A stretch of DNA of 64,000 bases. Source: Prasinococcaceae sp. CCMP 1430 (taxonomy: Eukaryota > Prasinodermophyta > Palmophyllophyceae > Prasinococcales > Prasinococcaceae). The stretch is from the NCBI GenBank assembly GCA_013416795.1, contig RQSC01000026.1, positions 431,662 through 495,661 of the forward strand. The letters are read 5' to 3'. The notes under the pieces are model-generated. The model saw only the letters and a program-made list of their open reading frames with translations, did not search any database and was not told where the DNA came from. This document shows, one piece after another, positions 22,485 through 64,000 of this stretch. Both the position numbers and the translations under genes were made by a program. Numbering within the stretch: position 1 is the first letter of the stretch; every line of letters starts with the position of its first letter.

Positions 22485-25073
22485 TCAGCGAGCGTTCCCC
22501 AGCCTGTTGAGGAGGTTGTTCCCAAGCCTGTTCAGTAGTTCCCCTCCGCCGCCCTCCTTGGCGGCCGCGCGCGCCTCGGCGGCCGCGCGGGCGTCACCTA
22601 AGCGTTCGTACGCTTCTGCGCGCACCTCCGGATCTATCAGCCGGGCAATAAAGCGCTTGGTAACGCCGTCGGGCGCGCTGGCATCCACACACGCGTCCAC
22701 GAAGGCACCCAGAGGGACATCGCCGGGTGGTGCGCCGCGCTTTTCCTTCGAGAGGCGGTCGAGGCCCTCCCAGTCGTTCGCAGTCACCAGCGCGGCCATG
22801 CGCAGCCACGTGAAGTGGCGCTCGCCCATACGAAAGTCGCGCTGCAGGCGCAGCGCCACCTTGAGGTTGCCAAGCGCGAGGCATGAGGCTACTGTGTCCG
22901 CGAGCGACGTCCCAACGAGACGCTCGCCGGTGGCGCCCTCGAGCTCGCGTTGCGCGCTCAGCAAGCTGGCAGCCTCGTCACACGCGCGCGCGTGACCAAC
23001 GCGCTCCTTTGAGCGGCTGTACATCTCCGACGCAGCGCTAAGCGCGCGACAGGCAGCAGTGACGCCCGCGGAGCCACCCGCACCGCGACGCGCGGCCGCA
23101 GCACCGCGCCCGGCCACTACTTCGCTCGGCGGCGGCCCGCCATCACGCGCCTCCAGCGCGTCCAGGAACGCGGCCTGCGCCGCCGCATGGGGTGCGCCCA
23201 CCGTGAAGCAGAACGTCTTGAGCAGTTCGGGATCCGTCGCGCGGCAGTAGGCCACGAAGAGCTCAGAGGCTAGCGGGCGCCCAGCCACCACCCGCACAAG
23301 TTCCTTGAAGTCGCCCTGGCGCCACACGTGGAAGAGCACGAGGTAAACCAGGTCTGTGTCGCCGCTCTCTATTGCTTTGTCTAGCGCGCGCTCCTGCTCG
23401 CCCATCTGCGTGAGTAGTGGCACCTGCTCGCCCGCGCGCGGCTCGAGATCAAGCAGCGCGGCAGCCAGCCTTTGGCGGCCCGCGCGGAAGGCACCCTCGG
23501 CTACCGACGCGTAGGACGCGCCGGGCATCGCGCTGAGCTTGCTCAGCACTGCCTCTAGCACGGCCAGGTCAGGGGCGTCCGGGTTGCTCGCGACCTTGGC
23601 CATCGCCCAGTGCTGCACCACGCGGCGGCTTGCAGCCTGAAGCTCCAGGTACTCGGCGATCTTGATGGCGAGCAGGTGCTGGCCCTGCGCGGCGAGCGTA
23701 TCGACCATCGCGTCTGCTCCGAGCGCCTCGAGCTGCGGTGCGGTGATCGGCCGCCCGACTCGGTAGTCGCGCAGCGCATTGAGCACGCGCAGCGTGCGGA
23801 TAGCCGCCTGGAAAGCTTCGGCGGTTTCACCCGCATCGGCCTGCGGCGTGAAGGCGTGACCATGCGCCGACGCGCGCATGAGCATGCGCTGCGTCGCGTG
23901 GTCCCACTCGTGCGTAGCCGCCTCGGCACACGCCATCGTCGCCTGAGCCATCTGCTCGGGACCGATGGCGCGCATGTTATCGTCCGCCTTCACGGAGCGC
24001 GCGTCGAAGTGCGTGAGCGCATCGTGCAGCAGCGCGGCGGGCGAGGTGGAGCCGATGCGGAAGACGTCCACCGTGGCATCTGGAACGCGCTGCAGAAACT
24101 CAAGCGAGCGGCTTGTGATCACGCGCACGCCATCCACCTCAGGCAGTAGCACCGCGGGCTCGTCGTAGGTGTACCGCATGAAGTCCCCGAAAGGCCCCAC
24201 CAACAGCAGCGTCTCGTCCCAGTATAGCACCACCGCGTCTGCGCCGCACCATACCAGCTGACGCGGCGGCGTGTCCCGCGGCGCGCCCGTCCCGAACTCG
24301 CTCAGAGTGTTCTCAAAGTCGGCCGACACCACCACCAGCGTGCCATCCTCAGTGAAAACCGCAATCATCGCGCCGTTCGGGGCCACCGCGAGCCGCGTCA
24401 CTGGGCTTGCGCCAACGTGTTTCTCCTCGCAGCGCGCCGCGTCTATCACGAGCAGCGCGTCGCCTGTGGCTACGAGCACCTCTGCGGAAGTGCCCGGCGG
24501 CGCTTCCTCGGGAGGCTGCAGCACTGCCACGCACCGCGGCTCGGGTGCACCCTCGCCGCAGATCGCCGAGTCTTGCAGCCGACGCACGCGCGGCGCAACG
24601 AAATCGTCGACCTGCAGAAGACGGTTGTCTCGCATACGTGCGACAAGTCCGCCGCTCCACACAATCACCTCCGCGACGCCGCCACCGTCGCGCGCGTCTA
24701 CGCCGAGCGAGAACGCACGCTCGGCCAGCGGCCGCCCGAGCGCGTCGTAGAGCGTGACTCCGCCGCCCTCCTCGACCACCACGAGCTTCTCCTGCGCTGT
24801 CCATCCCAGGCCTGCGATGCGCCCGCGCGTCCAGCGGAACGCCGCCAACGGGGTGCCCGCCGCTGTGTAAATGCACACTTCGGGCCGCAAGGCGCCGCCG
24901 ACCTTGACGATCTTTGACTCGTCACGCGTCGCAGCGACTGGCCCGCCAAACGGCGCGGCGGCGACGAGCTGCAAGTCGGGCTCGAGTGGCCACTCGAGCT
25001 CATAGAGCTCGCGACGTCGATAGTACCGATCGCCGATCTCCTGCCACTCGGCCGCCGCCGTGAGGCCCGCCAT
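22485..25073 (-). CDS. VPS16: Vacuolar sorting protein VPS16 (HOPS/CORVET core)
   Basis: Core subunit of the HOPS and CORVET tethering complexes that drive endosome and vacuole fusion. A single exon encodes 862 residues, close to the family length of about 840. The N-terminal half is the beta-propeller VPS16_N (EWQEIGDRYYRRRELYELEW near residue 9; later LLLVGPFGDFMRYTYDEP). The C-terminal half is the alpha-solenoid VPS16_C (AQGQHLLAIKIAEYLEL, SGDTDLVYLVLFHVW, GNLKVALRLQRDFRMGERHF). I chose the ATG at 25073; an in-frame GTG lies further upstream. Its stop lies only 67 bp from the MED7 stop. Confidence 0.92.
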   Translation of the reverse strand: MAGLTAAAEWQEIGDRYYRRRELYELEWPLEPDLQLVAAAPFGGPVAATRDESKIVKVGGALRPEVCIYTAAGTPLAAFRWTRGRIAGLGWTAQEKLVVVEEGGGVTLYDALGRPLAERAFSLGVDARDGGGVAEVIVWSGGLVARMRDNRLLQVDDFVAPRVRRLQDSAICGEGAPEPRCVAVLQPPEEAPPGTSAEVLVATGDALLVIDAARCEEKHVGASPVTRLAVAPNGAMIAVFTEDGTLVVVSADFENTLSEFGTGAPRDTPPRQLVWCGADAVVLYWDETLLLVGPFGDFMRYTYDEPAVLLPEVDGVRVITSRSLEFLQRVPDATVDVFRIGSTSPAALLHDALTHFDARSVKADDNMRAIGPEQMAQATMACAEAATHEWDHATQRMLMRASAHGHAFTPQADAGETAEAFQAAIRTLRVLNALRDYRVGRPITAPQLEALGADAMVDTLAAQGQHLLAIKIAEYLELQAASRRVVQHWAMAKVASNPDAPDLAVLEAVLSKLSAMPGASYASVAEGAFRAGRQRLAAALLDLEPRAGEQVPLLTQMGEQERALDKAIESGDTDLVYLVLFHVWRQGDFKELVRVVAGRPLASELFVAYCRATDPELLKTFCFTVGAPHAAAQAAFLDALEARDGGPPPSEVVAGRGAAAARRGAGGSAGVTAACRALSAASEMYSRSKERVGHARACDEAASLLSAQRELEGATGERLVGTSLADTVASCLALGNLKVALRLQRDFRMGERHFTWLRMAALVTANDWEGLDRLSKEKRGAPPGDVPLGAFVDACVDASAPDGVTKRFIARLIDPEVRAEAYERLGDARAAAEARAAAKEGGGGELLNRLGNNLLNRLGNAR

Positions 25074-25752
25074 CGCTGCGGGCAGCACTGGGCGCCACCC
25101 CGCGCCCTTCCGCCACCACTACCGTGTGCCTGCCGTGCGCACGCCGTCGGCCCCGGCGCGAGCGAAGGTTGGCGGGGTGAAGGTGAGGGGGGGGGGGGGA
25201 AGGAAGGGGGGGGGTGCTGAACCAGTGAAGGGCAGGGAAGCGCGCCGGGCGCCGCGCACCGACTTGAGTGGGCTGTTGCCGGGTCGAGCGGGGCGTCAGG
25301 TGGGTAGGCGGAGTGGCTCACCTCCGAAGTTCACGCGCTCAGGTCGGTGGGGCGCGGGAGCGGCGTGTGGAGGGGAGCGAAGGGGGGGAGGGGGGGGGGC
25401 GCTGCGCCCCGCCGCAGCGCGCGCGCCCTCTGGCGCTCGCGCGGGTTCCCCTCAAGCTTCTTTTTGACCCCGGCGCTCGAGCGGCGCTTCACCTGGGTCG
25501 AAGCATTTGCATTGAATTTCGTACCATTTCAAGCCCTCTTGGCGCGCTCCGGCTCGTGTGTACCCCGGTGTGACTCTTTTCCCCTGTCTGGAGCAAGTTT
25601 GGCCCAGGTCTGTCGGTCGGTGTTGTCTACACCTAGGACTGCAAGCGCCGCCGCTGTTGGTGTACGGCCGGGTGCGGGCGAGGGCGAGGGTGAGGGCGGG
25701 GGCTAGGTGCGGGAGGGGCAGAGCGTGCGCATGGCGCTCATCCCCGCTGGGG
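25074..25752. promoter_or_regulatory. Divergent spacer VPS16 / HRD1
   Basis: 679 bp with repeated G runs on the plus strand (around 25187-25212 and 25384-25400) and no conserved coding sequence. It presumably holds both promoters. Confidence 0.5.
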
Positions 25753-30582: not shown

Positions 30583-30864
30583 TGGGGTTTGCCCTTCGAT
30601 ACGGGCGGGAAAGCGGGGGCGGCGGCGCGGGGGTGTTGGCGCCTGCGGCGCGCGCACGCGCGCGTTCGGCTCGGTGCGGTTCGGTTCGGGTTGCGTGTGT
30701 GTGTGCGACTCGAATATGGATAAAAAGCGCGCGGGCGAGGAACGCGCGCGTGCCGCGCGCGCGCGCGCGCTGGCGCGCGCGCGGCGAAGACCGCGCGCGC
30801 GCGCTCTTTTTTCTTGCGTGTGCTGTGCGGGCGGGCCGCGAGCGCGCCGCGGGCCGCGGACGCC

Positions 30865-33800
30865 ATGTGGCAGCGCATGGTGGGAGGCGAACTGGCTGGG
30901 GGCGAAGATGGCGTGCTCGCGGCGCCGGAGCCGCTCATCCGCGCCAGCGCACCCGCGCCAGCCATGCCGGCTGCCGGCGCGGGCACGAAGGCGCGGGCGC
31001 GCACCTCGCGCGATGGCACGTGGGCGGGCGCGCCGAACGACGCGAGCAGCGACGATGGCGGCGACGGTGGTGGCAGCGGCAGCGCCTCGCCGGCGTCGAC
31101 GGACAGCTTCTCGCTCATCTCGCACGAGGACGCCGAGGAGATTGCGGCGGCCGTCGCGCCGGTGCGCATCGTCGAGAAGCCTCGCTGGCGGCCGGACCTC
31201 GGCCCCCCGACTGCCGGGACGGAGGCAGAGGGCGTTGGGAGCGACCCGGCGCGCGCGCCTGCGACAGCCGGGGCGGATGCGCGTGCGCCCGTCCAGGACT
31301 TGCTAAAATCGGAGCCTGACGCCCCCGAGCTCGCGAGCGCCGAGCCCGCAGCAACAGAGCCCGCGTGCCCGGAGCCCGCGGCCCCGGAGAGCCCCCTCGA
31401 GTGGCTCACCTTTGAGCGCGGCGTCGCCGAGGCGGCGCGCGCGGTGCGCCGCCGGCGCGCCGAGTTCCGCGCGGAAGGCGAGCTCTCAGCGGTAGTCGTG
31501 GCCATCGCGGGCCCCAGCGGCAGCGGCAAGAGTCACATGGCCGGTGAATTGGCTGCCGCCGTTGGCGGCGCCGCCGTGCTCTGCCTCGACCAGTACGTCG
31601 ATCCGGGCAAGGCGCCGGGTGCCGACAGGGACTTGTCGTTTGAGCACCTTGACATCGAGCTGCTGCTGGTCAACCTGAGCGACCTCTCCGCGGGCAAGGC
31701 CACGGACGCACCGCTGACCGACATTGAGCGCCGTGCGCGCATCGGCTTCGTCCGCGTGGAGCCCTCGAACGTCGTCATCGTCGAAGGAGTGCAGGCGTTG
31801 CACAGCGCGCTCCGCGCGCACGTGCATTACAGTGTCGCGCTGGTGGGAGGCGCGCACTACGAGCTCGCGCGCCGCGCGCGCCGCGCGCGCTGGGGAGCGG
31901 GCTCGCCACCCTCGAGCCCGGTCATGGCGAGCGGTGGACTCCGTCGCTCCGACTCTGTCGTCGGTAGCCTCTTCCCGGACTTCGCGAGGAATCTCGACGA
32001 GATGGCGATGGCCTCGCTGCGCGTGACCAACGACTTCGAGCCGTTGGCGCTGTGCGTGCGCGAGCCGCTGTACGTCATTAAGGCAGAGGTCAGCGCCGAC
32101 ACCGCCACGAAGGCGAGGGCGATCGCGGCAGCCTTCGACAGCGACACCGAGCGCGTCACCTACTCGGAACAGGAGTGTGTGGTGGACACCTACCTGCGAC
32201 CCGCGGCCGCGGGCGCCGCCACCCCCGCAGGCGCCACCGGCACGCACGCGCTGACCGATTGGGTTCGCCATCGCACGTGCGGCGCCCGCCGCACCATCAT
32301 GTTCCGCGAGTACCTGACGGACAAGGACCTCATTCTCAGCAGTCGGGGCCAGTACGAGGTTGGCGTCAGCGTGCTACCCGCGCTGCTCGCAATGGGCTTT
32401 GAGGAGGTGGCCGAGGTCACGCGCCGCACGGAAACCTTCACCGACGGCAGCCTCAGCGTGTGCTTCGAGCACGTCCGCACCCCGACGCTCGCCGTGGTCG
32501 AGGGCGGCGTGCCGCGCCCGCTCGACGGCCGGTTCTTGCTCGTCAAGGGCGCTGACAAGGGGCTCGTCCGCCAGGCGGCTGAGCGTCTGGGCATGAAAGA
32601 CCGGTCGCGCATCGTCAAGTCAACTCTCGAGCTGGCGCTCGAGGGAAGAAATCTTCCTGATGGACGCGTCCTCTCCGAGTCCGACACCGAGAGCGAGTTG
32701 CTCGACGAGGCCACCGGCGTCGCTAGTGCTGAGGCTGCTGGTGACGCGGCGCGCGTGACTGCTGAGACGATGCGGAAAGGGTCGAGCACCTCATCGTCCA
32801 TGACCTCGTCGTTCAACTCGAGCGTGGGTACTGACGGGGACGTGGTGCATATGACCGACGTCGAGGATGTTGCCAGTAAGAGCGAGGCTAGTAGCGTCGA
32901 CGAGGATGCATTTTCCGCCGACTCTGGAGATGCCAGCGCAGATGATCACAACGTGTACGCGATGGTGGATGCGAAAGATGCTGAGGGGACAGACGACGGC
33001 GCGGATGCGCTGGCCGAACCTGCGATTCGCATGCAGGTCGACGCGAGCGATTGGCGTACGAGCGTTGGCCCCGACGGCTGCCTGGGCTTGCTCCCCTTCC
33101 AGGAGCGCAACGTCAGCATCGACTCTGGCCTTTTTCTGATCGCGCAGGCGCTGCAGATCCTGCGCGAGAACCCTGAGGGTCCAAGCCCGGTGATAGTTGG
33201 CATATTCGGGCCGCGTGGCTCGGGCGTGACCTCTTTAGCGAGCGCAGTCTCTGTGCTGCTCGACGACGCCGTGGTCGTCTCGGCGGACGCCGCCCCCTAC
33301 TCATCCAGCGCGAGCCTGGGCCTGGGAGACCAGGCGAGCGAGCTCCTGAGGGCCCAGCGGGAACACGTGCGCTCGGAGCTCGAGGTCCTGAGCGGGTCCG
33401 AGCGACGGGTGGGAGGGAGCAGATCGACGCCCAGTGCTATCGTTGTCGAGGCCCCCCTCGAGGTCTTCTGCGACAACGAAATCGCCGAAGCCGTCCACTT
33501 CCGCGTTCACACATCCGGCGGCCTCAGTCTGCACCTGCGCTCACGCGTTCAGGAGGATGCCGTTGCCGCGGGGCTTCTCCCGGTAGAGGGCGGCACCTCG
33601 CCGATGAACGCCTTGCACGAGTCATTGCTAGAGGATGCACCGAGTTGCACATCTGAATTGGACGGGTCAAGCGCCCTTCCCCCCCACCTTCATATTTTGA
33701 ACGATTTCGACGAAATGGCAAAGCCTATCGACCCCGTGTACGAGGCGGCGGTGCTCGTGAGCGACAGCGTCGGCGGGGACCGCGGCGCTTTGCTGCGGCT

Positions 33801-34950
33801 GCTCAGGGGGCCTGCCCCAGTGGTGAACACCGAAGAGATGGCGATCGCGCTCGGAGCGCTCCCCGATGACAGTGGACGGGTGGAGAGAATGCAGGTTCGC
33901 CACCGGTCGTGGCAGGATTTCTACCTGGTGCCACCGGGCGCTGATGCGGCGTCCGCCTTGTTGGACGCGTGCGGGCGCTGGATGCGCATCCGCCGAGAGG
34001 GTTCGCGCATGCACCTGCGCATGGGCGAGCGCACGTGCCCCTACGCAATGTGGCTGCGCGGTACCAGTGGCCAGCCTAAGTCCTTCCGCGAACCTCGCGC
34101 ACGTCCTCTGGGCACGCCTGCTCTCCGCCGGCCTGAGTACGACGTGCCCATGCGCACCCTCGCCGCGCTCCTTGCGGCCGGCTACCGCATCGTGGGTGCC
34201 GCTTCTGTCAAGTGCACGGAATACGTGTTCGCCGCTGGCGCTGACAAGCGACTCTCATGCGTCATCGAGAGCGTTGATGGCGCCCATAGGCGGACGTACA
34301 CCGAGGCGTTCGTGCGTGGTTCGTCTGCTCCAGACGTCCACAACGCCACGCGCGCGCTCGGCAGGGCACTCGAGCGTGTGCGCGAGTCACGGTGGCTGCA
34401 CCTGAATTCCACGTGGAGCGCAGGCATGGCCACCGCCGAGTGCGCGTTGAGAGCGATGCTCTCGCCCATCAGCACTGTCGAACAGGCGCTCGCGCTGGGC
34501 CTCGACCACTCGCCAGTGGCTGTCGCAATGGAAGGCGTCGACAGGCTCGAGGCGGAGTTGCTCGCAGTCGCAAGTGCGCACGGCATGGATGCCGCCCGTC
34601 TGCAGGCGGCGGTCCTGCTGGCGAATCGACGGAAGATTATAGCGACCCGCCGCGCGGTGTCGGCGGGTGCTTACTGTTTGGCGGCGCTGCTCGCATTGGG
34701 CGTGTCTGCGTACAGCTACAACTTGCTTTCCTCGCCGCGATCGCGCAGAGGCGGTGGGGGCAGCGGCCAGCTCCCGAGGGGCGCCAAGATGGGCTCGCGC
34801 GCGAGGCTGGCAGGCGACGCCTGGCCGAACAGACTTGGGCGCGCGCAGAGCAATGCCATCGAGCTGGGCCTGTGGGCAATGGATGCGATCAGCGGCGCGG
34901 TCACCGACGACTCGATGCGATGCACGCCGCCGGCGTGGCGGCGCTTCTGA
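30865..34950 (+). CDS. Giant TTM protein: uridine-kinase-like + CYTH module, duplicated, with C-terminal anchor
   Basis: Related to plant TTM1/TTM2, triphosphate tunnel metalloenzymes that join a uridine-kinase-like P-loop domain to a CYTH domain and end in a membrane anchor. One exon encodes 1361 residues, about twice the plant length. Module 1 has an intact Walker A GPSGSGKS (about 215-222), IVEGVQALHSALR, then CYTH sequence (RTIMFREYLTDKDLILSSRG, LVKGADKGLVRQAAERLG, about 430-600). An acidic serine-rich linker follows. Module 2 has a degenerate P-loop GPRGSGVTS (about 781, lysine replaced by valine) and a second CYTH-like region (WMRIRREGSRMHLRMGE, LAALLAAGYRIVGAASVKC, about 1010-1200). 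One hydrophobic segment lies near 1265-1290 (YCLAALLALGVSAYSYNLL). The ATG at 30865 is the first; upstream is non-coding. Confidence 0.88.
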   Translation: MWQRMVGGELAGGEDGVLAAPEPLIRASAPAPAMPAAGAGTKARARTSRDGTWAGAPNDASSDDGGDGGGSGSASPASTDSFSLISHEDAEEIAAAVAPVRIVEKPRWRPDLGPPTAGTEAEGVGSDPARAPATAGADARAPVQDLLKSEPDAPELASAEPAATEPACPEPAAPESPLEWLTFERGVAEAARAVRRRRAEFRAEGELSAVVVAIAGPSGSGKSHMAGELAAAVGGAAVLCLDQYVDPGKAPGADRDLSFEHLDIELLLVNLSDLSAGKATDAPLTDIERRARIGFVRVEPSNVVIVEGVQALHSALRAHVHYSVALVGGAHYELARRARRARWGAGSPPSSPVMASGGLRRSDSVVGSLFPDFARNLDEMAMASLRVTNDFEPLALCVREPLYVIKAEVSADTATKARAIAAAFDSDTERVTYSEQECVVDTYLRPAAAGAATPAGATGTHALTDWVRHRTCGARRTIMFREYLTDKDLILSSRGQYEVGVSVLPALLAMGFEEVAEVTRRTETFTDGSLSVCFEHVRTPTLAVVEGGVPRPLDGRFLLVKGADKGLVRQAAERLGMKDRSRIVKSTLELALEGRNLPDGRVLSESDTESELLDEATGVASAEAAGDAARVTAETMRKGSSTSSSMTSSFNSSVGTDGDVVHMTDVEDVASKSEASSVDEDAFSADSGDASADDHNVYAMVDAKDAEGTDDGADALAEPAIRMQVDASDWRTSVGPDGCLGLLPFQERNVSIDSGLFLIAQALQILRENPEGPSPVIVGIFGPRGSGVTSLASAVSVLLDDAVVVSADAAPYSSSASLGLGDQASELLRAQREHVRSELEVLSGSERRVGGSRSTPSAIVVEAPLEVFCDNEIAEAVHFRVHTSGGLSLHLRSRVQEDAVAAGLLPVEGGTSPMNALHESLLEDAPSCTSELDGSSALPPHLHILNDFDEMAKPIDPVYEAAVLVSDSVGGDRGALLRLLRGPAPVVNTEEMAIALGALPDDSGRVERMQVRHRSWQDFYLVPPGADAASALLDACGRWMRIRREGSRMHLRMGERTCPYAMWLRGTSGQPKSFREPRARPLGTPALRRPEYDVPMRTLAALLAAGYRIVGAASVKCTEYVFAAGADKRLSCVIESVDGAHRRTYTEAFVRGSSAPDVHNATRALGRALERVRESRWLHLNSTWSAGMATAECALRAMLSPISTVEQALALGLDHSPVAVAMEGVDRLEAELLAVASAHGMDAARLQAAVLLANRRKIIATRRAVSAGAYCLAALLALGVSAYSYNLLSSPRSRRGGGGSGQLPRGAKMGSRARLAGDAWPNRLGRAQSNAIELGLWAMDAISGAVTDDSMRCTPPAWRRF

Positions 34951-35063: not shown

Positions 35064-36671
35064 CTAGGCGCGCCTGTGTGGGACGAGGCCGCGCGTGGCC
35101 TGTCGCAGCGCCACCACGTGTCTGACCTTTTTCCATGCCTCGTGGTCGTGAAAAGTTGAATCCCGATTGTCGACCGTCATGTCGTAGACTCGGAGCGCCG
35201 AGTCCTCGGCCCCCAGAACCACGCGTGCGTGTTCGAAATCGAGCCCGAGCACTCCAACGCGTTCCGTGTGCAGTACATGGCAGCGACGCGTGCGCTCATG
35301 CAAGATGCACACTTTGCCGTCGTCGCCACCTGTCAACACCATTTCCATCTCTGGTCGATACTTGACTACGTTTACCACGTCATCGTGCACTCGATTGACG
35401 AAAAGAGCATTGTCGCTCGCACCGCTTCCAATAGCGCGGAGATCGAAGAGGCGCAGGGTGCCATCGGCTGCGCCCACCGCAAGCACGTGCCCCCCCGAAG
35501 AGCAGCATCGCACGGCCCCTCTGCGAGATGCGCGCACTTCATTGACCGTGCTACTGCTGGCACGCGCGTCCCAGAGCCGCAAGTAACCGTCACCGCACGC
35601 TCCCGCGATTGCCGCACCCGCGCCCGACATCTCTCCACCCGCGAGGCCGTAAACGTCAATCTGGCCGACCTCCAGCTCAGCTGCCTTGGCGCCCCACCGC
35701 GCGACATCGAGCACTGTCAAGACGCCAGGCAATCTGCCTTGACATGATGATGGCAGGCCGAGCGACGAGTTGACGCCAGACACGAGCCAGCCCGGCGAGC
35801 GGCTCGGGACGGCGTGAACGAGCGAACTCGGCAGCGACATGCGGTCGAGACCGCGCAAGGAACGCGAGGGACTGCTGCCACCGAGGGCCTCCTGCGAGCA
35901 GTCCCACAACGCCACTTCCTTGCCTCCTGCAGCCGTTACGCCGACGTCCGCACAGACATCACCGCCGCAGAAGGTAACGGAAGTCACCTCACCGTCGGCG
36001 TCGCCCACTGTGAAACGACTCGCGCAACCCTCCGCGAGCTGCTCGCGCGTTCCTGGCGATGAGCCTGCCGAACCGTAGCCATGAATTTCCTCTGCGTCCG
36101 ATCCACTCGGTGACCTTGGAGGAGTGGCGTCTCCGCTGCCCGAGCGTCCTGCCCCGCCGGTACTATGACTTGCCCCCATCGGTGCACGCTCGAGGTCCCG
36201 CGGGTGATGCAAGAGGTCGAGCGTGACCGCACGAACGTTGCCATCGGCGCATCCGGTGAGCAGCAGCGAGCGCGGCGCGTGCAGGCGCACTGCATGAATG
36301 TAGCTGGAGTGCGTATGAGAGACTTGGCGCTTGAAGCGATGCCTGCGCCAATTGGAGTCGACAGACATTGAGGCCATGACGCTCGCACGGTAGCTTCCGC
36401 CGACCATGACCCCTGGCCAGCGCCCACAGCCGACAGCGGCGTGCTTCCATGCGTAGTCATCTTCAGCGGCGCTGCGTAGCCTGCGGCACGACGCTGCGGC
36501 AGCTGCAACATCCTTTGGCGGTAGCTTTCCGAGTACCGCTCGCAGCACCTCGTCGGGGCAGTCCGTCACCAGGGGCGCGTCCTCGTCGCACGCATTCGCT
36601 GACGAGGCTTGCGGCGCGGACGGGACCCCGTCATCCTCGCAGCACGGGCAATGCTGCGGCTGCACACGCAT
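35064..36671 (-). CDS. F-box / WD40-repeat protein
   Basis: Probable substrate adaptor of an SCF ubiquitin ligase. A single exon encodes 535 residues. The F-box lies near residues 38-80 (CPDEVLRAVLGKLPPKDVAA, with conserved leucines and the downstream AWKHA). The rest forms WD40-type repeats, e.g. YIHAVRLHAPRSLLLTGCAD, GEVTSVTFCGG, AAIAGACGDGYLRLWDARA, HVLAVGAADGTLRLFDLRA, VVNVVKYRPEMEMVLTGGDDG and HARVVLGAEDSALRVYD. A serine/glycine-rich insert interrupts the propeller. I took the ATG at 36671 (MRVQPQHCPCCEDDG); the frame stays open upstream, where an N-terminal CPCC motif is already included. The closest named orthologue is not clear. Confidence 0.82.
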   Translation of the reverse strand: MRVQPQHCPCCEDDGVPSAPQASSANACDEDAPLVTDCPDEVLRAVLGKLPPKDVAAAAASCRRLRSAAEDDYAWKHAAVGCGRWPGVMVGGSYRASVMASMSVDSNWRRHRFKRQVSHTHSSYIHAVRLHAPRSLLLTGCADGNVRAVTLDLLHHPRDLERAPMGASHSTGGAGRSGSGDATPPRSPSGSDAEEIHGYGSAGSSPGTREQLAEGCASRFTVGDADGEVTSVTFCGGDVCADVGVTAAGGKEVALWDCSQEALGGSSPSRSLRGLDRMSLPSSLVHAVPSRSPGWLVSGVNSSLGLPSSCQGRLPGVLTVLDVARWGAKAAELEVGQIDVYGLAGGEMSGAGAAIAGACGDGYLRLWDARASSSTVNEVRASRRGAVRCCSSGGHVLAVGAADGTLRLFDLRAIGSGASDNALFVNRVHDDVVNVVKYRPEMEMVLTGGDDGKVCILHERTRRCHVLHTERVGVLGLDFEHARVVLGAEDSALRVYDMTVDNRDSTFHDHEAWKKVRHVVALRQATRGLVPHRRA

Positions 36672-36920
36672 CGCGCTCGGGGAGTGGCGCGCGCCCGCGT
36701 GGCGTGCGCTCCTTTCTCCTGAACCGCAACCAAACGTCCTGCCAATCAATATCAATATCAAGGCACAAGGCAGGGGCAGGTGTTGATTAGGATAATTATC
36801 AGGGTTTGTAAAAAAATGCGTCACGCCTGCTGGCCACTGGCGGACGAACTCAGCGCACCCAGCGGCGCGGACAAAGAATGCCTTGCGAGAGTGGGGACTC
36901 ACTGGGGAGCGCGCGCGCTC

Positions 36921-40062: not shown

Positions 40063-43000
40063 CTAGCGACTGAAGTTATTGCGGGCTGCTGGCGCAGGCA
40101 TGGGCGTGAAAAAGTGCGCACTGGCCCCCGCTCCGCCCGCTGCGGCTTGCGCGCCCACATGCGTGCTCGCCGCCGCCCCACCGTCCTGACAGCCATCCGA
40201 GACCGCATGGCCTAGCGCTGTGCGTGTGACCCACTGGTTGTAGTCGAGGCGTAGCATGAGGCCGCCTGCGCCCGCTCCGCCATCCTGCACCTCCCCGCCA
40301 CGTTCGCGCTGTCTGCTGGCCACTTGCTCAAGGAGGGCGTACAGGAACTCCGCGCTGTCGGTGAAGCGCGCGTGCGCCTCGCAGATGGCAGCGTACTCGC
40401 CGGTGTCTGCAAGCGCCGCCATGGTTGCCGCCCCTGCGCCCGCGCCTGCATCCCCCGCGAGCCTTTCCGCCTGGCGCGCGGCTGCGTCGCACAGCCTGTG
40501 CAACGAGATTGCGCCTTGTAGTACGCTCTCGACAGCCTCGCGCGCGGCGGCTTGGTCGTCCGCAAGCAGGCAGCGTACCTTGGCCTCCTCCAGATATTCG
40601 CGGTGCGCTTTGACGACGCAGCCGAGCGTGCGCGCACGAGAGAGCGCGGCCATGAGCTCCGACCAACAGACGCCCGCGAGCTGCATGCCGACGTGCTCGC
40701 GGAAGGCACGAACGAAGTGCGCGGCCTCGTGGCGATAGCGCTGCACGCGGTGCAACCGGCCGCGAAGTGCGCGCGCGGCGCGCTCCGCAGCCTCGCGCTC
40801 GGCAATTGGAGCTCCACGCAGACGACGCGCAGCTGTCCGCTCGCGCGCCGCCAGGAAGCGCTCGGCTGCCGAGAGCTCACTGAAGGTCGCGTCGGTGGCT
40901 GCCTGTGCGCGCGCTGCGGCAATCTGGAAGCGCATCAGCTCTGAGTACACTTCGATGGCCTCCTGGGATATCACCGTTGAAAGCGCACCGCACGCACTCG
41001 CGCCCTCGCCGCCATCGCCGCCGTTGCTGCGGGTGTCGTAGTCGAAGCGCAGTGCATCGAAAGCATGCAGGGAGCTGCGATCGACAATCGCCGGCGCACG
41101 GCCGCCCACCCACCCGATCGAGCATCGCGCCATGGCCAGATCGCCCTCCGCCTGTGCAAGCGCCTCGGTCCGTCCGTCCATGTGGGCGCCCGGGCGCGAG
41201 AGGGCGTGCGCTCGATGCACCTCCTCGGCGCTACCCTGGTCGACGCTCGACCCACGCATCGCGGCCTCGAGCATGTTTGCAAGCTCGGCTTCGCCCGGCG
41301 TGGGCCTGCCGGTGGCGTCGGCGCCACAGCAACGCGCCTCAAGTGAGGTCGTAAGCTCGTGTGCGGCGTCGCCAGCGCGCATAAGCGCCACGAGCCGTAT
41401 GGCGCCCAGGTGCGCCGCTAGGCGCTGCTCGTCCATGAGGAGCCGCAACACGCACTCGCTCGCCGATGCATGCCACAAGTGCGCCTCAGCAACGATCGAG
41501 GCACCGAGCGCAGCCTCAAGGGGCGCAAGTGGCGCATCGGACACGCGGGGGGGCGCGGCGGATGGCGCCATTTGCCTCACTACTGCTGCCGTGTGAGAGT
41601 GAAGCGCTTCTTCCTCGGCCCCGGCCAGCGCGTCGAGCTCTGCAGTCTCATCCTGCCCTGTGTTGACCACTGAGTGTGCCGTCTCGTTTCCATCGCCGCC
41701 GACGACGGCAACATCGTTCGCACGGAAGTCGGCCGCCACGCGCAAGTGTGTCTCGTCCGGTCCAGTCGAGCCGCGCGTCAAGGTGACGAAGTCATCGTCA
41801 CCAAGCGCCAAAATAGCGTCCTCAGCGGCACGCTCAGCCTCCGCATCAAGGTCGCCTGCGCCGCGGCCGTCACTGCCGCCGCGTGCTTGTAGCCCCCGCT
41901 GCAGGCGCGCGCCAGCAGCCTCGTAGCGCAGCCTGCGCCACTCGGCACGCGCCTCAGCCGCGTCGAGCGCACGCATCCAAGCCTCATGCGATTCCATCAT
42001 CAGCCGCGACGCCGACGCCACTGCCTGCTGTACTGAAGGGGTGTCACCTGCAGCCAAATCGTCACGCGCCCTCACGGCCGCCGCGTCGCCTGCTGTACCG
42101 AATCCTTCCGCACCGGTGGTGCGCAGAGATAGGCCGCGTGCCTCCCGCAGCGCATCGGCCGCGGCGCGGCTATTCTCCAGTGACAGCGTCGCGATGGACG
42201 CCACGGCAGCAACGTCGCCTCGCCGCGCCGCGCGCGCAGCAGCCGCGCGAAGTTGCGCGCGCCGCTCGCCGGCACGCACAGCTCGCAGCACCGCTGCGCG
42301 GTGGGCTGACAGCGCGGCGGCTTCTGTGGATGCCAACGCCGTGCGGCGCGCGCGCCGACCAACGAAGAAGCGCTCGCACATGGCCGAACGTGCGGCTGCT
42401 GCGGCCCCCAGCACCGTGCGCGAAGCCAGCAGCGTAGGCTCATCCGCATCCAAAGGAAGCGACGCATTGGCGGAGGCACCCGCCAGCTCGCCCAGTCGCT
42501 CCGCCAGTGGGCGCGTGGGTGCGAAGGCCGCAAGCACGCGCACCTGCAGACCTGCCGCAAGCGCGAGGCCTGCCACGCCGCGCAGGAGCGCGGGCGGGCG
42601 CCGTGCGCCCTCGAGGTGAAGCCGCGCTTGCTCCCCGGCATCACCGCATGCCTGCTCGATGAAGAACTCATCGTGTGGGTCCTCGCAGCTACCGGTGGCA
42701 AGCCATTCACGCAACATCGCGGCGTACGGACGCAGTGCCGCGCCCAGTAGCCGGCGCGCGGTGGGTGCAAAGTCTGGGGTTGCTCTGCTCGCACGTGCGT
42801 GCAGGGCGTCAATGAGCGAGGCGCTCGAGCCGAAGCAGCTTGCGACGGGCGGCGCCTCGCCACTTCCTGAGCTACACATGAGCACGTGGAGGGAGCGCAG
42901 GTGCGCGCGTGCGCCCTCGGTGTGCAGCGAGGTCTGGAGCATTGAGAGTGGTTGGTCCGCCCCGATGTGCGTGCCGCTGGCGGCCGGCAAGCACGCAAGC

Positions 43001-44238
43001 GCGGTGTCCAGTGCGCGCAGCTCAGCAGCCAGCGCTACCGCGAGTGCACGCGAAGCAAGCGCCGGCGCAGCGGTGGCGGCGGCGGCAGCACTCTCGAGCG
43101 CGCGCCGCCGCGCGGACGCGACAGCCGCGTCGCCCAGCAGCGAGCGCGACGCCGACGCCGACATTGACGTCGATGCTGACGTGTGCGCTTGCGCGAGAGG
43201 AACTGCGAGCAGGCTCGAGGCATTGTGCACGCCGGCGAGACCATCAGTCACGCCACGTCTCACGTGCGCCGACTCCATGCCTTCCGCCGCTCCGAGCCGC
43301 ATGCGCCCGAAGAGCGCGCTCGGCGCCGGCGCTGGCTCGTCTGTGTTCAGCACAGGAGCGAAGCTGGCGCCCCCACTGATGACTGCCGCGCGCTCCTCCC
43401 ACGTGACGGCCGCGCGGGGCTCGCGCACTGGCAGCGCGTCGGCCGCGGACGCTGCCGACAAAAGCGCGATCGCCTCGCATCCTCCATCGGATGTGCTGTC
43501 GTCTAGGGCATCAGCAGGCGCGGCCGCGCCTGTGGCCGCCCCAGCGCATTCGTCTGCAGAATGTTCGCTCGCAGCACGCGCCGCGCCGCCGCCGCGCGTC
43601 TCTGCCTCTGTATCAAAGAGCTGCCGCGTGACGAACGACTCGCCACGCAAGAAAACGAATTGCTCGGAGCGCACGAGGGCGTCGAGCGGCGACAACTTCT
43701 TCGTGTCGCCGGCGCTCTGTTCTCCGGGGCCGGCCGCCGCGCGAAGGAAGGCCATGCCTGCGCCGGGCGTCGCCGCGCAGAGCGCGAGCGCATCGAGTGC
43801 GTCGCGTGCACCACGTGCGTTCACATCGATGGGATCGATGTCGGGCGAGGAAGGCAGGCTGGGAAGCGCCGCGAGCGTCGTGTCGGGATCCTGCTCGGCC
43901 GTGCGCAGCGCGAGCTCCACTCCGCACCCGCGCGGCGCGTCGTCGAGCGCGGCGGCGAGCACCCCCTTGTCACGCGCGGCCGATGGCTCCGCAGCATAAC
44001 CCTCCTCACCGCGTTCGCACACGCGTGCGGCAAGCGCGAGCGCCCGGGCGTCTTCAACGCGGGAGGGTGTCACACCTCCAACGTCGGAGAGCGCCAGCAG
44101 CGTCGCGATTGCCGCATGCGCACCGCGCTCGCTCAGCACGGCCGAGCCGCCCGCGGCCCTCGCCGAGTCGGCGTGCCGCGCGCGCCGGCCGCTCGCGCCC
44201 CGCCCCGCGCGCAAATTACCCCCGCGCCGACGCGGCAT
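40063..44238 (-). CDS. Gamma-tubulin complex component, GCP6-like
   Basis: Microtubule-nucleating gamma-tubulin complex subunit. A single exon encodes 1391 residues. The C-terminal GCP domain has HFVRAFREHVGMQLAGVCW, then AALSRARTLGCVVKAHREYL, EEAKVRCLLADDQAA and LMLRLDYNQWVTR near the end. An N-terminal GCP-like block contains LLRGVAGLALAAGLQV. A very long alanine-rich coiled linker lies between the two, as in GCP6, the largest family member. I chose the ATG at 44238. The frame remains open upstream, but two copies of CCATTGG at 44283-44297 (CCAAT boxes on the coding strand) suggest promoter there. Assignment to GCP6 rather than GCP5 rests on size and the long insert. Confidence 0.78.
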   Translation of the reverse strand: MPRRRGGNLRAGRGASGRRARHADSARAAGGSAVLSERGAHAAIATLLALSDVGGVTPSRVEDARALALAARVCERGEEGYAAEPSAARDKGVLAAALDDAPRGCGVELALRTAEQDPDTTLAALPSLPSSPDIDPIDVNARGARDALDALALCAATPGAGMAFLRAAAGPGEQSAGDTKKLSPLDALVRSEQFVFLRGESFVTRQLFDTEAETRGGGAARAASEHSADECAGAATGAAAPADALDDSTSDGGCEAIALLSAASAADALPVREPRAAVTWEERAAVISGGASFAPVLNTDEPAPAPSALFGRMRLGAAEGMESAHVRRGVTDGLAGVHNASSLLAVPLAQAHTSASTSMSASASRSLLGDAAVASARRRALESAAAAATAAPALASRALAVALAAELRALDTALACLPAASGTHIGADQPLSMLQTSLHTEGARAHLRSLHVLMCSSGSGEAPPVASCFGSSASLIDALHARASRATPDFAPTARRLLGAALRPYAAMLREWLATGSCEDPHDEFFIEQACGDAGEQARLHLEGARRPPALLRGVAGLALAAGLQVRVLAAFAPTRPLAERLGELAGASANASLPLDADEPTLLASRTVLGAAAAARSAMCERFFVGRRARRTALASTEAAALSAHRAAVLRAVRAGERRAQLRAAAARAARRGDVAAVASIATLSLENSRAAADALREARGLSLRTTGAEGFGTAGDAAAVRARDDLAAGDTPSVQQAVASASRLMMESHEAWMRALDAAEARAEWRRLRYEAAGARLQRGLQARGGSDGRGAGDLDAEAERAAEDAILALGDDDFVTLTRGSTGPDETHLRVAADFRANDVAVVGGDGNETAHSVVNTGQDETAELDALAGAEEEALHSHTAAVVRQMAPSAAPPRVSDAPLAPLEAALGASIVAEAHLWHASASECVLRLLMDEQRLAAHLGAIRLVALMRAGDAAHELTTSLEARCCGADATGRPTPGEAELANMLEAAMRGSSVDQGSAEEVHRAHALSRPGAHMDGRTEALAQAEGDLAMARCSIGWVGGRAPAIVDRSSLHAFDALRFDYDTRSNGGDGGEGASACGALSTVISQEAIEVYSELMRFQIAAARAQAATDATFSELSAAERFLAARERTAARRLRGAPIAEREAAERAARALRGRLHRVQRYRHEAAHFVRAFREHVGMQLAGVCWSELMAALSRARTLGCVVKAHREYLEEAKVRCLLADDQAAAREAVESVLQGAISLHRLCDAAARQAERLAGDAGAGAGAATMAALADTGEYAAICEAHARFTDSAEFLYALLEQVASRQRERGGEVQDGGAGAGGLMLRLDYNQWVTRTALGHAVSDGCQDGGAAASTHVGAQAAAGGAGASAHFFTPMPAPAARNNFSR

Positions 44239-45243
44239 CCACCCCACCCCAAAAACAGCCCAAAACGGCACGTGAGCGTCCGCCATTGGCCCATTGGATA
44301 CTGCAGTAATTACGCGTACGTCCTCACTGGATTCCATAATAACCGCTCCGCCCCGCGCGCGCGCGCGCGGCCCGCCCCGGCCCCAACCCCAACCCCGTCC
44401 CGACGAAAACACCATTCATTCGAACGCATCACGCGTCGTGTATAGACCCTGGTAACGACTCACCTTAATGAAAACGCGCTTCCGCGCGCGCGGCGCCCCC
44501 ACCCGGGGTGGGGCGTTAGTGGGTCCCGCGGGCGGGCGCGCGCGCTCGCGCGGTGCGTTTTGATGGGGCGCGGCGCCTGCCGGCGCCGCGCGCGCGCGCT
44601 CTGCCGCTGCGAAAAAAAAAACTTACTGTAGTTTTCGAACCCGACGGCGGCGGCGGGAGGCGGCGAGCGCCCGCCTCGATCGATCGATCGCGGGCCAGCT
44701 CAACGAACCAACGACCCCTGTCGCAGCCGGGGCGCGCGCGCCCGGAGACCGCCGCGGCCGTCACGCTCTCGCGAATGAACCTAGCATTTGACCCGCCCGC
44801 GAGTTGCGGCGTCGCCTGGCTGGTGGTGGGTAGGTGGGTGGTGACGACTTTCTGTCTGTGGTGGTAGGGGTGGTGGTGGTGGTGGTGGTGACGCGCGCGA
44901 CGCGCGGGCGCGCCGGCCGCCCCATGTAAACCTGCATCGAAGCGCGTCCCTCGGCCGGGAGTCCGGAGGACGACGACCTCATTTGTGCGATCATTTGATC
45001 CAAAAAAAGGAGGCAATGCCGGCACCCCACCATCAGCTCTTTTCTGCCCTGTCTGTGCGGCGAAACGTTGGGGGGTGCGGCACTCCGTGTGCGTCGCGGC
45101 GCGCTCTCGGCAACCGCCTCGCCGTCCTTGCCGCCCACCCCCTACCTCCGGTCGGTGCAGCGACGCGCCGGGGCTCACCGCGGGCGGCCGCGTCTCTCGG
45201 CGCGCGCGCCCCTCGGCACGCGCGTGCGTACCGCCGCGTCGCC
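44239..45243. promoter_or_regulatory. Divergent promoter region GCP6 / LEO1
   Basis: About 1 kb with no conserved coding sequence. It holds a double CCATTGG (44283-44297), CG-dinucleotide runs, an A run at 44612-44621, ATCGATCG repeats (44678-44691), a GGT trinucleotide repeat (44869-44890) and an A run at 45002-45007. Confidence 0.55.
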
Positions 45244-61026: not shown

Positions 61027-64000
61027 CTAGCTTAGGTCAAATCCGGCTCCGCTCCGGATGCTCGCCAGCAGCTTCGACCTCATCGTCGACTCCTTCTTGA
61101 AGTTGGGGAGCTTGAGCGTGTTGAAGCACGTCGACGCGCTCGGCAGCCGCTCGGCATCCTTGCCAAGCCCGATGACCGCGAACGGGCTCGCCTCGCACGC
61201 GACCTTGTGGAGCGTGAACGGCGGCCGAAGGTGTCCGAATCCGAGCGCGGGCGGCCTCGAGCTCGAGGTCACAAACTTGAGCAGCAACGAACGGTCCTCA
61301 CGCGACATGCCGCGCACGACCCGCCAAAACATCTTGACGGTGCGTGAAGTCGCCGAGTAGCCCGACAGCACGGTGTGTTTCATGAGGTCGTCCACCGACA
61401 CGTCGACGACCGCGCCGCCCGTGAGGAGGTTGAACTCGCCGGGAGAAAACATGTTCAACCAGCTGGGACGCATGAGCGACAGCAGCCCTCGCTTGAAGGC
61501 CGCCCGTTGCCTGTGCGTCGCGCGGTTCAGATAGTAGTCGGCGAGCTTGTGCACATAGAGCAACTTGTTGTCTGCGGTGACGTCCACGTCGCCGCCTTTG
61601 GGGACGAGCTCGTGCGTCTGCCGCGCGCCGAAGCGCTCCACCTCCACCGTAAAGTCCAAGCACAGGTCGGCCACGTCACCGTCGTCGTGCTTGACCTGCA
61701 TGAGGGACGCGTAGATCTCCTTGTCCATCGCCGCCAGGTCCTCGAGGCCCACATGCGAATCGCCCTGGAGGATCTGCGCGGCAAACGTGGGCGCCACCGC
61801 GGCGTCGACGAGCACCCCCTCGTACAGACACTTCGCGAGCACCTGCCCGGCGAGCTCGTACAGCAGCAGCGTCTCAGAATCCGCCCGCTTGTCGCCCCCC
61901 CCAACGGACTCGGTCGAGGGGTACACGAGCCCGTCCTCGGTCTTGGACCACAGCCCATAGTGACCCTCCCGGCACAGGGCCGCGGCCATGTCCGTCAGGA
62001 ACTCCTTGTACAGTCCGCCAAAGTCCAAACCGGCCTCGCGCGCGCCAGCGGCGTTGACGAACGCGATGTGCAGCGGGTTGCGCAGCCCGGCCGTCGGCGC
62101 GTGCGCCGCCGCCGGCAGCACTGCGCGGCTCTGCGCGAGCAGCCTGAAGGCTTGGAGGCCGTCCTCGACGAGGCGCGCTCGGCGCACCTCGTACGAGACC
62201 GCTGCCCGATGCAGCGCGCCGGGCTGTTCGTCGGTTCTGTCTGGACTTGGCGCGCCGCACGCCCGCCTGTCTTGGTCGATGAAACGGCGCAGCGCGGCCA
62301 CCCGCCTCTGGAAGGGCAGGACGTGCGGCAACGTGGAGAGGACGGCGTCCTCAGCCCACTCTCCGTACGCCTCGGGCGGCGCCAGCACGGCCGGCGCGGT
62401 CCACAGCAGCGGCGGGCCGAGCGCGCCAGCGCTCGCACGCAAGCGCTCGGAGCGGCACGCGGCGGTGCGCAGGTGGCGAAGGGTGAGCGCACCCGCGCGC
62501 AGGAGCGCGGCGTCCCCTCCGCTGCCGCCGGTAGCCACCGTCTGGCGCGTGACCACCGAGTAGTACACAGCCGTATTGAGCATCGCCGCGCACGCGCGAA
62601 CGCCATCGGGCGACAGCGGGCACCCCGCCTTGGTCCCATTGAGTTCAGCGTCCTCGAGCACCGTGAGAAGCGCCGAGAAAGCGCGGCAAAACACGGCCAT
62701 CGCGGCGCCTGCGCCCGCCGCAGCCATCGCTGCGAACCCACCCCGAGCGGCCGACGGCGTGAGCTTCTTCGCCGCCGCCGCTGCGGCGGCAGCGCGCTTG
62801 GCGTCGGCGCCCCGCATGGCCGCACTTCCCCGCCCGCCCCCGAGCGCCTCCAGCTCGCGCGCACTGAGCGGCGGCTGCTCCTCGCTCGTGGCGAGCGTGG
62901 AGCACACGGTTGCCCAGCTCGCGCGGACGCACGTCCGACTGAAGGCCAGGGCGACCGCGAGGCGCTGCACCCACGCGCCGCTCGCAGGCGCCGCGCCGTC
63001 CGCGTCAGCGGGTAGGCTCTCGAGGAGAGCGAGCAGCGCGTCGTACAGCGCGCAGGCATCCATTGCGTCCGACGTGAATGCCGCCTCGACGACCGCGTGC
63101 GTGGCGAACGTGTCCACGAGCGCCTGCATCGCGTCGTCAACCCACTGCGCCTGCTGGTCCGGCGCGGAACGGCGATGATCGGCATCCGCGGCGGGCACGG
63201 CGAGCTCGACGAGCGCGGCGCCGAGCAAGGCCGCCAGTGGGCGAAGGCAGGCCCGCAGGTGCTCCTCGCGCGGCTGCTGTGACCGACCCCCGGCGCCGCT
63301 GCGCGAGAGCAGGTGCGTCAGGCTGGCTGCCGCTCGCAGCGCGGCAGACGGGCTCGAGCGCCCCGCCGCCGCGGCCTCCCGCGCCGCCGCGGGCTGCCGC
63401 TGCCGCCGCTGCCGCGGGCCGGCGCTCCACGAGCGCCGTCGCCGGCCGCAGCGCGACGCCGCAGAGCGTGAGCAATCGCAGCTGCCGTACCGCCGCCTGC
63501 GCCTGCGCCTGGGTCTCACCATCCCGCTGGCACGCGCCTACGAACGCCGTCCGCGCACTCCGCGCCACCGAGGAGCGCGCGCCGACGTACTCGAGCAAGC
63601 GCTCCTCGGCGGCGTCGATGGAGTCGCCGCCGTCGCCGCCCCACTGCCGCGCGTCTGTGAGGGTGATGAGAAACCTCGCCGCCGGCCGCTGGAGCTCCCC
63701 ATCCTCGCCCGCGGCGAGCATTGCGGTGGCGACCTCCACGAGCGCCGGCGCCTGCACCTCGAAGCCATTGTGCGGCACCTGCGCTCCGCCGCGCGCCGGG
63801 CCGTAGCGACCGTCGCCGAGCGCGCTGGCGAGAGCGGCGAGGGCGTCGGCGGCGAGCGCTCGGTGCGCGGTGGCATCGAGCCGGCGCAGTGCGAGCCACG
63901 GCCTCGCGAGCTCCGCTTCGCAGAGCCTCGTCCGCCCCGCCTCTGCGTCCCCCGCCGGCCCGGACGCGAGCGCCCCCAGCGCCGCGCGCGCGCGCGCCCC
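61027..64000 (-). CDS. HECT E3 ubiquitin ligase, UBE3B/UBE3C-like (5' partial, one frame slip)
   Basis: Catalyses ubiquitin transfer through a HECT-domain thioester. The C-terminal ~340 residues are the HECT domain: FVNAAGAREAGLDFGGLYKE, DSETLLLYELAGQVLAKCLY, YVHKLADYYLNRATHRQ, LMRPSWLNMFSPGEFNLLTG, KFVTSSSRPPALGFGHL and LPSASTCFNTLKLPNF. The cysteine of STCFN is catalytic (codon near 61126). Upstream is a long alpha-helical region, as in UBE3B/UBE3C and plant UPL6/7. The frame shifts by one base between 63365 and 63415, inside GCC/GCG repeats: before it the protein reads ...GVALRPATALVERRPAAA, after it AAASLTHLLSR. A short intron without normal sites is less likely than a base-count error. 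The gene continues past the right edge. Confidence 0.88.

Follow-up and report, generated by a model that had tools for sequence, protein, structure and literature searches.

In a 64,000-nucleotide stretch of contig RQSC01000026.1 from Prasinococcaceae sp. CCMP 1430 (hereafter the window), the open reading frame 30865-34950(+) encodes a TTM protein that carries the entire kinase-CYTH module of plant TTM1/TTM2 twice in succession, and this doubling is confirmed here at the level of sequence. What is new is that a TTM1/2-type module is doubled within one chain, the single module being already known. Judged on its residues, the frame is probably a nuclear green-algal gene of the TTM1/TTM2 type with two modules and one anchor-like stretch, in which module 1 would be the working copy and module 2 a pseudo-module. 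The segments of the chain are collected in Table 1.

An earlier note on this DNA, made from the letters alone, had described one uninterrupted 1361-residue frame with two consecutive modules, and both the frame and its contents bear this out. The frame contains no stop (1408 codons from stop to stop), the alternative plus frames over the same positions contain 27 and 31 stops, and the GC content of the window is 64-76% in 2-kb steps. A codon score trained on 1908 codons that come from four further frames in this genome ranks the frame first in all seven segments scored, the linker included (0.13 to 0.47, whereas the five competing frames range from -1.08 to +0.09; in the linker +0.319 versus -0.170 to -0.950), and the GC content at third codon positions (GC3) stays at 0.71-0.91 throughout.

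Module 1 is readily recognized: residues 181-577 match Arabidopsis TTM1 (7z66) at E=8e-28 in a phmmer search of solved structures, and the NCBIfam uridine kinase model finds the module at E=6e-16 (58.5 bits, under its cut-off of 180). Residues 713-1361 searched alone reach just E=0.0031 against 7z66, in three collinear pieces that cover the P-loop region, the DxY/WxRxR region and a later stretch. Compared as single sequences, the two modules find each other by BLASTP (E=1e-5, 101 of 399 columns identical) and by hhalign (E=4e-7); they are 29% identical. The second module is brought out by one kinase and one CYTH profile built from AtTTM1, the other TTM of this genome and nine bacterial relatives, with modules 1 and 2 both excluded. 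These profiles score 83.8 (kinase) and 36.1 (CYTH) bits in module 1 and 16.8 and 14.6 bits in module 2, each value being reached by none of 2000 residue shuffles, and they place a kinase domain before a CYTH domain in both modules, an order that phmmer also gives for module 1. The N-terminal part, the linker and the tail score no higher than their own 2000 shuffles with either profile; in the N-terminal extension 408 of 2000 shuffles reach the kinase score and the CYTH profile finds no match. Of the 382 stop-free frames of at least 100 codons in the window, none but this one exceeds 2.3 (kinase) or 0.1 (CYTH) bits, the values of the runners-up, whereas its own scores are 92.3 and 42.5 bits.

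Several observations weigh against the reading of two modules, one of them working. Curated Pfam cut-offs are reached nowhere along the chain: CYTH (PF01928, cut-off 23.2 bits) has no match in the whole chain or in the two pieces scanned, and PRK/uridine kinase (PF00485) reaches 17.5 bits, below its cut-off of 22, with its best stretch in module 1 and no match in residues 713-1361. Module 1 is itself divergent, with TDI in place of YDF, FRE in place of FEE and a CYTH domain under the Pfam cut-off. GC3 drops from 0.83-0.91 in module 1 (residues 151-600) to 0.73-0.80 in module 2 (residues 751-1200). Finally, a structural model of module 2 predicted with module 1 as the sole other row is of low confidence, with a mean predicted local distance difference test (pLDDT) score of 43; a single-sequence model was set aside at a mean of 36. 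In the two-row model the elements follow each other in kinase-then-CYTH order, and its only Foldseek match below 0.001 is AtTTM1 (7z67, E=4.9e-12; the next stands at 0.012). Structure prediction had been put forward as a check for two tunnel folds, and the low-confidence model does match 7z67 best. However, when the tunnel half of module 2 was aligned with VIA-align, unrelated capping proteins appeared among the rows at similar Z, and the second tunnel fold is therefore not taken as established by structure.

The division of labor between the modules is suggested by their motifs in a 13-row alignment, of which 11 rows are references. Retained in module 1 are the P-loop GPSGSGKS, VVIVEG, LYVIK with its TYILK-type lysine, VDTYL (DxY) and WVRHR (WxRxR). 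In module 2 the P-loop reads GPRGSGVT and has lost the Walker A lysine, SADAAPY replaces the DDY or DNY of most other rows, AIVVEAP occupies the EG motif, the counterpart of YDF is absent, and VYEAA, at the TYILK position, has lost the lysine that module 1 retains; QDFYL (DxY) and WMRIR (WxRxR) are kept. An intact first P-loop and a second one without its lysine, as originally described, are thus both seen. Excerpts of PMC8233210 describe AtTTM1/2 as lacking ExExK, keeping W/YxRxR and DxY, and preferring pyrophosphate, and an excerpt of PMC9582125 gives TYILK as the replacement of ExExK; the mapping of W/YxRxR and DxY onto AtTTM1 as YLRMR and DIY is our own. Since most of its kinase motifs and one tunnel lysine are gone and the DxY/WxRxR pair is kept, the losses of module 2 concern mainly the kinase and that one tunnel lysine, not everything. 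The residue pattern fits in part the earlier proposal of an active copy beside a structural or regulatory one: module 2 is not uniformly dead, because DxY and WxRxR persist, and the divergence of module 1 (TDI, FRE and the sub-threshold CYTH) means that we only infer its activity.

That divergence also lends some weight to the view that both modules are catalytically dead and that the protein binds or tethers, in a role comparable to that of Drosophila TTD14. Module 1, too, departs from the reference residues, and tunnels of the TTM1/2 type lack ExExK in any case, as far as the excerpts of PMC8233210 go. According to parts of PMC4624897, TTD14 has a P-loop domain with a CYTH domain behind it, like the algal module, binds GTP and phospholipids, and acts through nucleotide and lipid binding; unlike the doubled TTM, it is a soluble single-module protein of 475 residues. 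We nevertheless consider this unlikely, as module 1 retains GPSGSGKS, the EG of VVIVEG, the LYVIK lysine, DTY and WVRHR.

Under the reading that we prefer, catalysis may fall to module 1, and module 2 would be a pseudo-module that serves as its partner or as a phosphate sensor, functions suggested by residues and analogy. As the working copy, module 1 would bind a nucleotide through its P-loop, and its tunnel would take up a short phosphate, conceivably pyrophosphate by analogy with AtTTM1/2. Module 2 would probably pack against module 1, or bind phosphate without turnover, and could thereby stabilize or tune module 1 at the membrane, where a C-terminal helix, by analogy and from the hydropathy peak, would hold the chain. 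A bolder version, which we put forward tentatively, is that of a TTM with its own pseudo-enzyme partner, an intramolecular equivalent of an enzyme-pseudoenzyme dimer: module 2, its kinase motifs lost and the tunnel DxY/WxRxR pair kept, would sense phosphate or nucleotide from within the chain and control module 1 at a membrane. With P-loop, tunnel lysine, DxY and WxRxR in module 1 versus only DxY and WxRxR in module 2, the chain is a natural case for comparing the two and telling the role of the kinase from that of the tunnel.

Plant TTM1/TTM2 proteins carry a C-terminal membrane anchor, and AtTTM1 is reportedly located in the mitochondrial membrane. For the single C-terminal anchor ascribed to the algal chain, Kyte-Doolittle hydropathy gives one candidate: an anchor-like stretch, followed by 79 residues, has the highest score (1.84) of all windows of 19 residues in the chain, and the runner-up (1.66, residues 787-805) lies within the kinase part of module 2.

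Table 1. Segments of the doubled TTM and the second TTM gene of the genome (positions in the window unless a locus is given)
Feature	Position	Strand	Remarks
N-terminal low-complexity extension	30865..31389	+	residues 1-175; Ala/Pro/Gly/Asp-rich by eye; coding bias in frame
Module 1 kinase, P-loop uridine-kinase-like	31390..32034	+	residues 176-390; GPSGSGKS 216-223; 7z66 match, profile
Module 1 CYTH/TTM domain	32035..32694	+	residues 391-610; LYVIK 402-406, VDTYL 440-444, WVRHR 466-470; profile
Ser/Asp/Glu-rich linker	32695..33078	+	residues 611-738 (128 residues); low-complexity; in-frame coding score
Module 2 kinase-like domain	33079..33705	+	residues 739-947; degenerate P-loop GPRGSGVT 782-789; profile
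Module 2 CYTH-like domain	33706..34509	+	residues 948-1215; VYEAA 958-962, QDFYL 1017-1021, WMRIR 1039-1043; profile, low-confidence model
C-terminal segment, probably helical	34510..34653	+	residues 1216-1263; inferred from helices in very-low-confidence model
Membrane-anchor-like stretch	34654..34710	+	residues 1264-1282; Kyte-Doolittle
Tail, 79 residues past the anchor-like stretch	34711..34947	+	frame runs to stop 34948-34950
Single-module TTM of the same genome	L004 3049-5664	-	kinase, CYTH, hydrophobic C-terminus

The position of this anchor-like stretch also bears on whether the frame is one gene at all. Two adjacent TTM genes could mimic a single frame if their boundary were masked, through splicing, a start inside the frame or a join made in assembly, within the 128-residue linker, which is of low complexity and matches neither profile above its shuffles; the lower GC3 of module 2 would agree with such a history. 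Yet no stop lies between the modules, so that the stop of module 1 would have to come from splicing, the linker shows coding bias in frame, and the anchor-like stretch follows module 2 only, all of which leads us to regard two genes as quite improbable. Least probable of all is that module 2 is a functionless, decaying remnant of a tandem duplication, as its very long branch (see below) and many lost motifs might suggest, since the frame stays intact with coding bias for 623 codons beyond residue 738, the anchor-like stretch lies behind module 2, DxY and WxRxR survive, and the duplication, with modules only 29% identical, is not recent.

Searches of the genome assembly (24.5 Mb, 145 contigs) that used as queries the chain, its module 2 and the second TTM show at least two genes of this kind, the doubled TTM and a single-module TTM on another contig; the doubled TTM is therefore not simply a mis-assembled copy of the latter. 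Both share kinase, CYTH and a hydrophobic C-terminus, but the second gene has one module and is less divergent: it exceeds the Pfam cut-offs for PRK (58.6 bits) and CYTH (42.2 bits), is the only match of Pfam CYTH in the genome, and has its Kyte-Doolittle peak (2.08) near the C-terminus. It is also far closer to module 1 (E=3.5e-25 and 1.1e-5) than to module 2, of which it matches the kinase-like part at E=0.0016.

Outside this genome, three scans of viral contigs gave 1, 21 and 91 stretches that fit the pattern, none of which encodes a relative, and no relatives were found in phages. Among stretches from genome contigs, relatives numbered 0 of 25 at first and 2 of 90 after the alignment had been sharpened (L011, Parcubacteria; L012, Nealsonbacteria), and a 383-genome sample of the class of L011 gave matches at E<=1e-15 in 10. 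Two of these (L013, L014) repeat the genes already present as L011 and L012, and one (L022), with the CYTH half only, was dropped, which left the nine bacterial rows used here (L011, L012, L015-L021). These bacterial proteins share the kinase-CYTH module, of about 390 residues. In L015 (1504-3297(-), 598 residues) and L016 (1507-3309(-), 601 residues) one frame holds a kinase and a CYTH domain over the Pfam cut-offs, preceded by an N-terminal stretch that reads as CYTH-like by eye (IERKFLI); this extra stretch, which Pfam CYTH does not match when it is scanned alone, comes without a kinase, and the resulting order of CYTH-like, kinase and CYTH differs from that of the doubled TTM. The kinase-CYTH frames of L011 and L012 each have a separate CYTH-like frame directly upstream (L011 1195-1749(+), L012 5511-6014(+)), which Pfam CYTH matches at E=0.00021 and 0.012, both below the cut-off. 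L018-L021 have frames at the equivalent position, and that of L018, the one scanned, has no Pfam match.

In a tree, modules 1 and 2 group together with support of 63/32. Each has a very long branch, flagged as a possible cause of a false join, and that of module 2 is the longest end branch (3.07 changes per column). Three alternative topologies were not rejected by the approximately unbiased (AU) test (p-AU 0.336, 0.222 and 0.448). Given this weak grouping and these alternatives, the tree does not choose between a doubling inside the gene and module 2 as an older copy.

With Arabidopsis TTM1/TTM2 (7z66/7z67; CYTH cluster 7 in the excerpts of PMC8233210) the algal protein shares the kinase-then-CYTH order, W/YxRxR and DxY, and through module 1 only (LYVIK) the TYILK-type replacement of ExExK. 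The plant proteins have one module, whereas the alga has two, the second degenerate, and extends 79 residues past its anchor-like stretch; with two modules per chain it is therefore a variant, not an ordinary member, of the TTM1/TTM2-type proteins. The earlier note knew of no described TTM with this layout, which agrees with our searches of an open-access library, where we found no two-module TTM. If the genome is that of Prasinoderma, this would be a TTM variant in a lineage that, according to part of PMC7455551, split before Chlorophyta and Streptophyta.

Other genes of the assembly were seen in passing. The frame L010 1108-3447(-) joins a kynureninase-like part (by eye from the translation) to a 3-hydroxyanthranilate dioxygenase (Pfam), and a fusion of kynureninase and 3-hydroxyanthranilate dioxygenase is reported, in an excerpt of published work, for Prasinoderma coloniale, whose genome is given there as 25.3 Mb with 69.8% GC. 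Taken with the GC content of the window, this makes Prasinoderma or a close relative the probable source of the assembly. The genome has 22 light-harvesting (PF00504) matches; one of them, compared with solved structures, hits light-harvesting complex I (LHCI) chains of 9vfj first, followed by chlorophyll a-b binding proteins, among the best 60 of 374 matches. Some light-harvesting matches are enclosed by very long open frames, namely C52:736658-737026 (4149 codons), C73:248265-248594 (2980), C35:7494-7772 (2598) and C2:131320-131439 (6555), which may be fusions or open frames such as a GC-rich genome produces.

Within the window, the neighboring frames 35064-36902(-), 40063-44415(-), 22485-25088(-) and 61027-63522(-) match F-box/WD40, a gamma-tubulin complex component, Vps16 and a HECT domain, respectively, and are ordinary eukaryotic genes. 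About 60 bases upstream of the start codon of the doubled TTM, a GC-only inverted repeat of 12 pairs is followed by a T run (30773-30802).

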